Source of the DNA: Nitratireductor basaltis
GTDB taxonomy: Bacteria; Pseudomonadota; Alphaproteobacteria; Rhizobiales; Rhizobiaceae
Reading direction: 5' to 3'
DNA length: 64,000 bases
Assembly: GCF_000733725.1 (NCBI RefSeq)
Contig: NZ_JMQM01000001.1
Location: 124,001-188,000 of the forward strand
The notes below the pieces were generated by a model. That model worked only from the letters and a program-made list of their open reading frames with translations, had not been told where the DNA came from and made no database searches. Below are positions 18,311 through 22,127 of this stretch, in pieces. Numbering within the stretch: the stretch's first letter is position 1; each line of letters starts with the position of its first letter. The position numbers and the translations under genes were made by a program.

Positions 18311-18916
18311 TCAGGTCACTGTTGCCGCGTGGGGAGGCGTTTCAGGCGATGAGTGCCACCAACGCCAAAGCGCCCAGTCCATCGACACGGCTCCTGCGCC
18401 CTTGAGTACAAGATAGCCAAGGAGGAAGGCCCATAGCGTGCGCTGATCCCAGATCAAACCATCGGAGAAGCGGTCGAACCATGCACCGGCTGTTTCAGCG
18501 CCCACCTGGTGTACGGTGATGTCCACGATCGACTGAACGATGATGAAGCCGATCATGCCGAGTGCGGCCAGCCGTGTGAACAGCCCGATCACGATCAGGA
18601 GCGGCAGGAGGAATTCCGCATAGGTTCCCGCCCAGACAATGGGTGTCCAAGGGAAGAAAGATACCTGGGAGACATCGAAACCAGCGGCCTCCACCGCAGG
18701 AAGCGCGATCTGGAAATAGGCGGCATCCGACACGTTGAAGAAACCCAAAAAGCCTTCTTCGACCTTGGTGCGGGCAGAGTTCAGGAAATAGAGATAGAGG
18801 ACGGCAAGAAAGGCGAAGCGGGCGGCGAGGCCTGGAAGCCAATTGTCCGCGAAGTTCTCTACCGCGTTGAAAATCCGGCGGTGGAGGGACACGGCACCTT
18901 CAAAGAGGCTGTGCAT
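18311..18916 (-). CDS. DoxX-family membrane protein of the bufferin operon
   Basis: A 201-residue DoxX-type protein with about four membrane helices (for example F-A-F-L-A-V-L-Y-L-Y-F-L, L-L-P-L-L-I-V-I-G-L-F and L-W-A-F-L-L-G-Y-L-V-L). DoxX proteins are often last in DUF692/DUF2063 operons; a role in thiol or copper redox chemistry at the membrane has been proposed but is not established. The ATG at 18916 is chosen because AAAGGAG lies seven bases upstream; the frame is open to 18958, overlapping bufC. It starts 13 bases after bufC, so it is the fourth gene of the operon. Confidence 0.88.
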   Translation of the reverse strand: MHSLFEGAVSLHRRIFNAVENFADNWLPGLAARFAFLAVLYLYFLNSARTKVEEGFLGFFNVSDAAYFQIALPAVEAAGFDVSQVSFFPWTPIVWAGTYAEFLLPLLIVIGLFTRLAALGMIGFIIVQSIVDITVHQVGAETAGAWFDRFSDGLIWDQRTLWAFLLGYLVLKGAGAVSMDWALWRWWHSSPETPPHAATVT

Positions 18917-18929
18917 GATGCTTCTCCTT

Positions 18930-19706
18930 TCACTGCGCTGGCGACAGCATGGCGCCACGCTCGATCATGAGCGCGATGGCTGACGCCAGATCGAAACCAG
19001 GTTCGGATGCCTGTGCTGACTGAATTGCCTCGGCAAAGTTCTTGCCTGCGCTCAGGCTCTCGAGGAAGACGGCCTGGCCGGAAGAGATCGCTGCCAGTTC
19101 TACCGTGAGCTGCGGACGCGTTACGAGCACGGTCTGCGCATTGGCTGCATTGATGCGGCGACGCGTCATGTCCGACCCGCGATTGGCGTTGAAGATGTCG
19201 AGGATGGCATAGGGCGAAGCGACGATGCGCATGGCGGGGTGGGGGGTGAGCCTGAGGCCTGGCAGATCTTCCGGCTTGCACGACGCAAGCGTTTCACCAT
19301 CAAGCGGAGCGGCGTCGGCTGCGTGATAGGCATCGAGCCATGCCCGTTCGAGCCGTGCGAGATCGGCCAGATAGGGCAGGTGGGACAGCGGCTCGAAGCC
19401 TTCAAGGAAAGTGCTCATCTCGCGGCCATATTCGAAAAGCAGGGGTGAACGCGGCGGATGGCGCTCCACATACATGGCGGCGAGACGACGAAAATTGTCT
19501 TCGGCGATCACGCGTGCGGTTGCTGGATAAATTTCGAGCAGAGCCGACGCGATGCTGTAGGAGACGTTGTTGCGATAAACGTCGAAGCGTTTTTCTGCCG
19601 CCTTGCCGCGTGGTCCGACGATCCGCTCGGGCTTCGATGCGCCGCGCGTGCTCAGAGCCTTCGCCAGGTCCCGGTCATAGCTTTGTGTTTCAGACGAGGT
19701 GACCAT
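18930..19706 (-). CDS. bufC: DUF2063 protein, bufferin-modification partner
   Basis: A 258-residue DUF2063 protein. The N-terminal half has the family pattern [25 protein letters not shown] and Y-G. In bufferin-type clusters this protein is the partner of the DUF692 (MNIO) enzyme and is needed for precursor modification, probably by recognising the peptide. It overlaps the upstream bufB gene by 17 bases, showing tight translational coupling, and is followed by the DoxX gene. It has no signal peptide, so it acts in the cytoplasm before export of the peptide. Confidence 0.9.
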
Positions 19707-20625
19707 TGGCTTCTTTCGCGCCCTTGCGTGAGCGGGCTATTCTGCGCTCCGCGTTCGCCAGAATTTCACCGGCTGCCATGGCTTCGGCCTTGAGAACAGG
19801 CCAGTCAGGTATCTCCGCATCCCACTCGACCAATGTCGGCACCGGACCGCGTTTGCCGATGACATGGCCGTAGAGCGTCCAGACCGGATCGGCCACGGGG
19901 CGATCGTGGCTGTCGATCAGAAGCGGTGCGCCTTCATCATCGGACTGCTCGTCATGGCCTGCGAGATGGATCTCGCCGACATGGTTCAACGGGAAGGCCT
20001 CGAGATACTCCGTGGCGCTGTAGCCGTGATTGGTGGCCGAGACGAAGACATTGTTGATGTCGAGCAGAAGGCCGCATCCGGTGCGATGCACCACTTCCTT
20101 CAGGAAATCCGTCTCCGACCAACTGGATTCGGCAAAGAGAACATAGGTGGACGGATTTTCCAGCAGGATAGGCCGGCCGATCGCGTTCTGGACCTCGTCG
20201 ATGTGGTCGCAGACCCGATCCAGCGTTTCATCCGTGTAGGGCAGGGGCAGGAGGTCATTGAAGAAGATGTCATCATGGGTCGACCATGCCAGATGTTCGG
20301 AGACGAGTGCTGGCTCATAGCGGTCCACAAGGGCGGCGAAACGCTGTAGATGCTCACGATCAAGCGGCTGCAGGCCGCCAATCGACATGCACACACCATG
20401 CAGCGAGACAGGGATGATCTCGCGCAGGCGCGTCAGCAGGGCGTGGGGCGGGCCGCCCGCGCCCATGTAGTTTTCGGCATGGACCTCGAGAAAACCGACA
20501 GGCTCATGATCGGCGATAATGGCTTCGAAATGCTGAGGTTTGAAACTCGCGCCCGCATCGGCCTTGAGGGGGAAAGCCGGGAAGCGGCCGTTCCTGGTTG
20601 CCCTGGTGGGATAGGTTCCGGTCAT
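19690..20625 (-). CDS. bufB: DUF692 multinuclear non-heme iron oxidase (bufferin synthase)
   Basis: A 311-residue DUF692 (MNIO) enzyme with a TIM-barrel fold. Likely iron ligands are spread as in the family: E-V-H-A-E-N-Y, S-L-H-G-V, S-E-H-L-A-W, L-E-N-P-S-T-Y, L-L-D-I-N-N-V, I-H-L-A-G-H and E-W-D. MNIO enzymes oxidatively modify cysteines of ribosomally made peptides; in bufferins the products are thiooxazoles that bind copper. The gene follows the precursor after 23 bases, and the ATG at 20625 has GGGGAG upstream. The neighbours (Cys-bearing precursor with a signal peptide, DUF2063 protein) support the bufferin assignment. The modification itself is inferred. Confidence 0.93.
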
Positions 20626-20648
20626 GATCGCGCTCCCCGGTTGTGAGA

Positions 20649-20954
20649 TCAGGATGGGATGTCGCGATCAAGAGGCTCAAGCGAGCCCATGCGGCCACCG
20701 GGCAATTCTATGTCGGCGCATGTGCCTGCATCCACCATTTTCCAGGCATTGCCTTGGTAATCGACCTTCGAGGTGCCTGCACATGTGGTGCCGGGACCTG
20801 CTGCGCAGTCATTCTGGCCAGCCATGGATACGCCGTAACACTTTTCCTTGGATTGAGCCTGTGCCGTGGTCGCCGTGGCGAGCGTCGCGGCAGAAAGTGC
20901 TGCAGCAACGGAGCCCGCAATATAGGCGGCGCTGAGAGCGGTTTTTCCAGACAT
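20649..20954 (-). CDS. bufA: Bufferin-type precursor peptide (DUF2282)
   Basis: A 101-residue exported peptide precursor. A Sec-type signal peptide covers residues 1-33 and probably ends at A-Q-A. The rest carries four cysteines at 39, 50, 58 and 79 in the DUF2282 pattern K-C-Y-G-V, N-D-C-A-A, T-T-C-A-G and A-G-T-C, plus W-K near 71. In this family, modified cysteines bind copper and protect cells from excess metal. It is the first gene of a four-gene operon with the modifying enzyme next. GGAGGA precedes the ATG at 20954. The leader on the minus strand (20955-21083) contains short hairpins (around 20980-21012) but I cannot assign a sigma factor. Confidence 0.9.
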
Positions 20955-21083
20955 TGATATTCCTCCGTGAAAATCAGCCGGACCATTCCGGCCACCCGAA
21001 GACTGGCAGTCTGCGGCTTCACGGGGAAATCAATCGCATGCGAGTGTTGGTTCACCATCGCGTGATGATGAATCCGTCGGCGT

Positions 21084-22127
21084 CTATGCGAGGAGGTTCA
21101 CCACCGCGTCCACATCTTCCTTGCTGGTCGCAAAGGAAGTCACGAAGCGGTAAAGACCCTCATCTTCGCCGCAGGAAACACCGCGAGGCACAGGCCAGGG
21201 ATAGAAGCGTGCCCCTGCCTGCAGGGCGGTTTCGGCCTTCTGCTTAGCGATGATCAGGAAAATTTCGTTGGCCTGCGGTGTCCAGGCAAGGCGTGCAGTA
21301 CCTGCGGATGCAAGACTGTCGGCGAGGCGTTTGCCCATTGCGTTGGCGTGCCTGGCCGTCTTCAGCCAGAGATCGTCGTTGAAATGGCCTGCGAACTGAG
21401 CCGCCACGAAACGGCTCTTGGAGAAGAGTTGGGCCGAGCGCTTGCGAATGAACGGCATTTCGCGCGCTTTGTCCGGATCCATCACGACGATGGCTTCCGC
21501 GCACCAGCAGCCATTCTTGGTGCCGCCGAAGGAAAGTATGTCGACGCCGCGTTTCCAGGTCATCTCGGCAGGGGTGGTGTCGAGCGATACCAGCGCATTG
21601 GCGAAGCGTGCGCCATCCATATGGAGCGGCAGACCGTGCTTCTTCGCGATCCCTCCGATCATCTCGATCTGTTCGAGATCATAGACGGTGCCAATCTCGC
21701 TGGCCTGGGTGATGGAGACGGAAGCCGGCTGACCTGCATGGATGAATTGTGCAGGATAGTCACCAATAGCGGCTTCGAGCGCTGCAGGATCCATGCGGCC
21801 CAATCCACCTGCTACGCCGCGCAACCGACCGCCGCCTGATAGATATTCCGGGGCGCCGCCTTCATCGGCGATCATATGTGCCGCCTCATGGGCGAAGCAC
21901 ACGCCACCCGGCTTCATGGTCAACGCCATGGAAAGCGCGTTGGCTGCCGTTCCGGTGGAGACGAAGAAGACAGCGACCTCGCGCTCGAAAAGTTCGCTGA
22001 ATTTCTGTTCGACCTGGCGATCCAGTTCGCTGGTTCCATAGGCGCTGGCATGTCCGGTGGAATGTTGCGCAAGCGCTTCGCTGATAGCCGGATGGGCACC
22101 AGCCCAATTGTCGGATGCGAAATTCAT
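21084..22127 (-). CDS. ltaE: Low-specificity L-threonine aldolase
   Basis: A PLP enzyme of 347 residues that splits threonine or allo-threonine into glycine and acetaldehyde. Family marks are the N-terminal D-N-W-A-G-A-H-P, the H-M-D-G-A-R-F-A-N-A segment holding the PLP-contacting Asp, and the Schiff-base lysine in S-F-G-G-T-K-N-G. It is a little diverged from E. coli LtaE but of usual size. It stands alone; gltB is divergent across a 485-base spacer. Related beta-eliminating lyases share the fold, but the D-G-A-R and G-G-T-K-N-G motifs favour threonine aldolase. Confidence 0.88.
   Translation of the reverse strand: MNFASDNWAGAHPAISEALAQHSTGHASAYGTSELDRQVEQKFSELFEREVAVFFVSTGTAANALSMALTMKPGGVCFAHEAAHMIADEGGAPEYLSGGGRLRGVAGGLGRMDPAALEAAIGDYPAQFIHAGQPASVSITQASEIGTVYDLEQIEMIGGIAKKHGLPLHMDGARFANALVSLDTTPAEMTWKRGVDILSFGGTKNGCWCAEAIVVMDPDKAREMPFIRKRSAQLFSKSRFVAAQFAGHFNDDLWLKTARHANAMGKRLADSLASAGTARLAWTPQANEIFLIIAKQKAETALQAGARFYPWPVPRGVSCGEDEGLYRFVTSFATSKEDVDAVVNLLA

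Follow-up and report, generated by a model that had tools for sequence, protein, structure and literature searches.

The 64,000 nucleotides of Nitratireductor basaltis analyzed in this work (contig NZ_JMQM01000001.1, positions 124,001 to 188,000 of the forward strand), which we call the window, carry on the minus strand, from 20954 to 18311, the genes bufA, bufB, bufC and a DoxX gene, in that order (Table 1). We have classified this group with high confidence as a Buf1 bufferin biosynthesis operon, based on the family matches of its genes, the residues of BufB equivalent to those of HvfB, the recurrence of this operon in 58 of the 62 relatives, and the function published for homologues in Caulobacter and Cupriavidus. 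A previous examination of this DNA (the sequence-only reading) had proposed both the location of the four genes and a bufferin-type operon. The Pfam matches bear out the first proposal, since the hidden Markov model searches matched DUF2282, DUF692/MNIO and DUF2063; the second is supported by these families, by DoxX and by the NCBIfam MNIO_BufB equivalog, whose cut-off of 310 bits BufB exceeds with 383.6. At E up to 0.001, DUF2282 and MNIO are each matched once in the genome, which makes this the sole such system found in it; DoxX has two matches, the second one distant from the operon. The four-gene arrangement is already described, and the two DoxX types and the promoter element presented below are modest additions to it. 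The original bufferin results are taken from papers that cite them; the literature basis also includes PMC5413113, PMC12538549, PMC9731502, PMC3687685 and PMC9275681.

Table 1. Genes and promoter features of the bufferin operon in the window.
Feature	Position	Strand	Description
bufA	20649..20954	-	DUF2282 (Buf1) precursor, 101 aa; PF10048 88.7 bits, cut-off 22.4
bufB	19690..20625	-	MNIO (DUF692) maturase, 311 aa; Pfam MbnB_TglH_ChrH 351.8 bits
bufC	18930..19706	-	DUF2063 partner protein, 258 aa; PF09836 70.7 bits
DoxX	18311..18916	-	Long-type membrane protein, 201 aa, no Cys; Pfam DoxX 28 bits
Promoter element TTGATTTCC-N2-GTGA	21019..21033	-	64 bp 5' of the bufA ATG
Inverted repeat TCAC-N6-GTGA	21052..21065	-	Upstream of the TTGATTTCC-N2-GTGA element

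Among solved structures, a phmmer search with BufB retrieved 3BWW (7.8e-40) and MbnB. The first of these is 72% identical to HvfB, whose N175A, D242A and H244A variants are inactive (PMC13419390 section 23). Mapped through 3BWW, in which the numbers of the last two residues are one lower than in HvfB, N192, D238 and H240 of BufB correspond to the HvfB site-3 residues N175, D242 and H244. The gene arrangement is also preserved: 58 of the 62 relatives of the window's DoxX found in genome contigs have bufA, bufB and bufC matches upstream in the same order, and we therefore consider it more than a product of chance. The other four relatives correspond to two loci cut by contig ends (L042 and L048) and two that are decayed or misassembled (L072 and L092). 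The nearest named relatives belong to Nitratireductor, and DoxX is 77% identical to its N. luteus counterpart.

Our comparisons use a family sample of 151 genomes, taken from a larger group, and a phylum sample of 398 genomes. DUF2282 is present in 80 of the former, where MNIO is present in 81 (80 above the cut-off), and in 102 of the latter, at 112 places. A place is a DUF2282 match, and tandem precursors (G058, G084, G100) are consequently counted twice. Three of the 112 phylum places (G000, G054, G128) were already in the family sample, and 100 of the other 109 were fetched; the nine left out comprise three tandem neighbours within other fetched regions and six judged by eye to be near-duplicates. 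At five phylum places (L187, L205, L213, L228, L238), DoxX adjoins the precursor gene and bufB and bufC lie nearby on the opposite strand. At another five of the 100 (L220, L229, L240, L257, L260), no bufB, bufC or DoxX was found within about 4.5 kb on each side using models built from the family, and these are perhaps stand-alone precursors.

With its DUF2282 match and four Cys, BufA agrees with the four-Cys precursor proposed in the sequence-only reading; a putative signal peptide was judged by inspection, with a basic residue at position 4, a hydrophobic stretch and AQA before the mature part. Its score of 23 bits for NCBIfam BufA2 lies below the cut-off of 60, which, together with the DUF2282 match, makes it a Buf1 by Pfam and not a Buf2. 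The four Cys follow the pattern C-x10-C-x7-C-x20-C, which is shared by all 58 precursors found in related operons, at loci chosen by their similarity to the window; in one of them, an open reading frame (ORF) begun too far upstream gains two Cys. In the 100 phylum places, the spacing of the middle Cys is 6 residues in 23, 7 in 57, 8 in 18 and 9 in 1, with 1 unreadable; L235, which has a stop within its precursor, was left unclassified. Given that all 58 relatives share the 10-7-20 spacing and that x7 predominates among the phylum places sampled, the proposal that this core differs from the described ones lacks support.

Comparable operons have been described in other bacteria. In Caulobacter vibrioides/crescentus, CC3254-CC3257 show the same order of DUF2282, DUF692, DUF2063 and DoxX, with a DoxX protein of 150 aa (PMC3511200) in contrast to the 201 aa of the window, and the thiooxazoles of its Buf1 chelate copper and aid growth under copper (PMC12452194 section 21). 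The gigPABT operon of Cupriavidus metallidurans and the GIG operon of Legionella contain the same four families, and the Cupriavidus order P, A, B, T is that of the window, although GigT, with 156 aa, is also shorter than the window's DoxX. In addition, gigPABT is divergent from an extracytoplasmic function (ECF) sigma gene (PMC10304878), whereas in the window bufA has a lyase-type gene beside it, transcribed from its own strand. The expression of gig is induced by copper, and gig adds to copper resistance in some Cupriavidus multiple mutants (PMC10304878). The Hvf or fontiphorin (EGKCG) clusters have an MNIO and a DUF2063 partner in common with the window, and hvf also has a DoxX-like protein, HvfX; their precursor is an EGKCG repeat, unlike the DUF2282 precursor of the window.

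By analogy with these homologues in print, from which we infer the chemistry, the export and the role in copper, the strain is likely to produce a small peptide that traps copper outside the inner membrane. BufA would be synthesized in the cytoplasm bearing a Sec signal peptide, and BufB, as an iron-dependent MNIO, together with its substrate-binding partner BufC, would convert the two central Cys into thiooxazoles, while the outer two would form a disulfide; this is the pattern published for Buf1 precursors, modified at the central Cys and with a disulfide between the outer ones (PMC12452194 section 14). Once exported, the peptide would bind periplasmic copper and ease copper stress, and DoxX would belong to this pathway as an inner-membrane protein with no part in the BufBC chemistry. 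It is important to consider the observations that weigh against this interpretation. First, some of the profile scores: none of the NCBIfam BufA1-type models matched the precursor, BufC scores 48.5 bits for NCBIfam HvfC (cut-off 142), and DoxX scores 18.7 bits for NCBIfam HvfX (cut-off 80). Second, the predicted signal peptide of BufA rests on a reading by eye. Third, the place of DoxX in the pathway: in E. coli, HvfBC modifies HvfA without any DoxX protein (PMC13097082), and DoxX is missing at 8 of the 94 phylum places having bufB and bufC, only one of which (L276) is cut downstream by a contig end.

The sequence-only reading had put emphasis on the DoxX partner, which is not unusual. Bufferin clusters are described as having a core of precursor, MNIO, DUF2063 and DoxX genes (PMC12452194), and in the family sample DoxX occurs at 86 of the 89 places with DUF2282, the remaining three being cut by contig ends, and at 86 of the 94 phylum places mentioned above. 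A rule drawn from the family sample, according to which operons with a C-x6-C core lack DoxX, was discarded as a detection miss by means of a short-DoxX model and the phylum sample: of the ten places scored as having none, six have a short DoxX of full length and one more (L170) has a contig-end fragment, and DoxX is present at 20 of the 23 phylum places with x6 spacing. The ORFs used to build the short-DoxX model include those loci, for which its score is circular, although these ORFs lie directly after bufC. At the two decayed or misassembled loci, both in metagenome-assembled genomes (L072:3227-3991 and L092:5902-6330), bufA and bufB are gone, the DoxX frames are broken, and L072 retains only the end of bufC, as if the long DoxX decayed after the loss of the remaining operon, unless these are assembly errors.

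Two types of DoxX can be distinguished in bufferin operons. The window's protein matches Pfam PF07681 with 28 bits against a gathering threshold of 23.6, over a stretch of only 46 residues. With a long-type profile built from 44 of its relatives, long-type proteins score more than 200 bits (one fragment, 150) and the other bufferin-linked DoxX proteins at most 47. The family sample yielded 43 long-type matches, 42 of them located downstream from a DUF2282 gene and the sole exception being a 91-residue fragment whose genome has another; in the phylum sample, the long type was found at 19 places, all of them with x7 spacing. These associations, together with the presence of DoxX at most places in both samples and its broken frame where bufA and bufB are absent, argue for DoxX as part of the bufferin pathway. 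In a FastTree phylogeny of BufB from 181 operons, parsimony gives 9 changes between the long and short types, and a single clade of long-type operons was rejected by the approximately unbiased (AU) test on a 61-row BufB tree (p-AU 6.3e-7), a result that, because of the way the rows were selected (181 reduced to 83 by similarity, and then to 23 long-type and the 38 nearest short-type), speaks for this subset and a quick tree. We consider, from both results, that the DoxX slot has been refilled more than once, either by exchange of DoxX or by recombination with bufB. We found no description of the two types in the accessible portions of openly licensed papers, supplements aside; for the same literature, the role of DoxX is open, as the sequence-only reading had stated.

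The two types also share features that set them apart from ordinary DoxX proteins. In the 44 long-type proteins 25 residues are invariant, and the polar ones include E101, D132, H136, D157 and R159. We aligned the long type with 109 short-type proteins and 30 ordinary DoxX proteins, the latter consisting of the best-scoring PF07681 loci with the genome's own second gene and not of a random draw. P105 is present in 100% of the long and 80% of the short types, whereas 96% of ordinary DoxX proteins have Gly; W162 is present in 100% and 98%, respectively, whereas 53% of ordinary proteins have Ile; position 159 is Arg in the long type, His in the short type (97%) and Asn in ordinary DoxX (86%). The AlphaFold model of the window's DoxX has a mean predicted local distance difference test (pLDDT) score of 89, with helices at residues 2-49, 90-110, 114-134 and 154-172, among others. 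GigT of Cupriavidus has been suggested to pass electrons from Cu(I) in the periplasm on to the quinol pool (PMC10304878), and this idea fits our DoxX data; the reading that we prefer, speculative and held tentatively, is that DoxX could be a quinone-linked membrane partner handling copper redox. An equally tentative alternative is that DoxX serves in docking, import or anchoring of the loaded peptide with no redox function, and P105 and W162, common to both bufferin types, are as compatible with contacts to a peptide as with a cofactor site. Nothing speaks directly against this alternative, although the invariant E101, D132, H136, D157 and R159 of the long type may imply more than docking.

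Regarding the organization of the operon, the 17-base overlap of bufB and bufC (19690-19706) reported in the sequence-only reading is real, provided that the ATG at 19706 is the start of bufC. The same overlap appears in five of nine other Nitratireductor loci (L033, L034, L037, L038, L039); it is of 20 bases in L032, and the genes are separated by 1 to 4 bases in the other three, with the starts in this comparison chosen by script. For DoxX, the ATG at 18916, which yields 201 aa and lies 13 bp past bufC, is more likely to be the start than the listed GTG at 18958. A convergent HSP20 gene follows DoxX, and bufA is preceded on the same strand by a gene for a beta-eliminating lyase-type protein (21084-22127), which leaves 129 bp as promoter space for bufA.

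With up to two mismatches, the promoter element of Table 1 is present at 34 of the 42 other long-type family places (displaced in L140, and scored as a miss in L159, which has almost no upstream sequence), at 4 of the 46 other family places, at 0 of the 100 phylum places and in 1 of 500 random pieces. Since the 19 long-type phylum places lack it, the element tracks the lineage and not the type of DoxX. The genome contains one exact copy and one further site with one mismatch, and a reversed control pattern gave one. The site of the element showed no sigma-70-type promoter, and no description of it was found in the available portions of openly licensed papers, supplements aside. The inverted repeat precedes the element in an alignment of 38 of the 39 element-bearing loci; L140, with its element in another position, was left out. 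Exact copies of TCAC-N6-GTGA occur upstream of 16 of 42 long-type operons (window included) and 7 of 46 others, where single-base shuffles lead to expectations of 0.18 and 0.14, respectively. Allowing one mismatch, the repeat is found at its usual offset, 31 bases before the element, in 23 of 39 loci, against 0 of 39 for six other offsets; the copy of the window sits one base further out.

This repeat has a counterpart in S. meliloti, where AGTCAC-N6-GTGACT and cenK are both needed for full activity of the srlA promoter, to which purified CenR binds in a repeat-dependent manner (PMC9561847); cenR itself is reported to be essential in that species. The window has an unaltered TCAC-N6-GTGA core and differs from the published 18-base repeat in its outer bases. 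The CenR motif of Rhodobacter is a direct repeat, TGA-N8-TGA, that aligns reasonably well with the Sinorhizobium one, according to the authors of the latter (PMC9561847). With low confidence, we propose CenR as a candidate regulator of the operon; the combination of promoter element and CenR-like repeat suggests an envelope-stress control. ChvI was also considered as a regulator and set aside, since the literature passages at hand gave no motif that settles it. No NrsF-type anti-sigma, which we take to be the DUF1109 anti-sigma of Caulobacter, was matched in the genome (E up to 0.001), and one match was obtained in a Caulobacter control. The Caulobacter operon, by comparison, has an ECF sigma-F with a DUF1109 anti-sigma (PMC3511200).

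The similarity of the repeat to the CenR site of a gene involved in salt and oxidative stress also bears on the purpose of the operon, which might serve mainly against another stress (oxidative, gold, chromium, cadmium or general envelope stress), with copper binding as an incidental property. This explanation, in line with the induction of the Caulobacter operon by chromium and cadmium and its dependence on sigma-F (PMC3511200) and with the designation of gig as gold-induced genes, seems to us rather unlikely in view of the reports that the Caulobacter Buf1 bufferin chelates copper and improves growth in its presence (PMC12452194) and of the copper inducibility of gig (PMC10304878). It is very improbable that DoxX is a DsbB- or VKOR-like thiol-disulfide enzyme making the bufferin disulfide, because the protein has no Cys and a separate thiol partner would be required, and the absence of Cys in 36 of 61 long-type proteins argues against a thiol relay.

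A broader proposal, which we consider unlikely, is that bufferin DoxX proteins might form a functional class of their own, with interchangeable long and short subfamilies that share the Pro and the Trp and would act as quinone-linked partners oxidising or passing on bufferin copper, and that the envelope-stress system CenKR would replace the ECF sigma factor in the bacterial family of the window. The operon of N. basaltis is a further member of a large described class, and it narrows the question of DoxX: most of these operons encode the protein, in one of two types that substitute for one another, many of the long type cannot use thiols of their own, and P105 and W162 are class-specific residues that can be mutated. 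The promoter finding, in turn, offers a testable regulator in a genome where the Caulobacter-type NrsF anti-sigma was not found.
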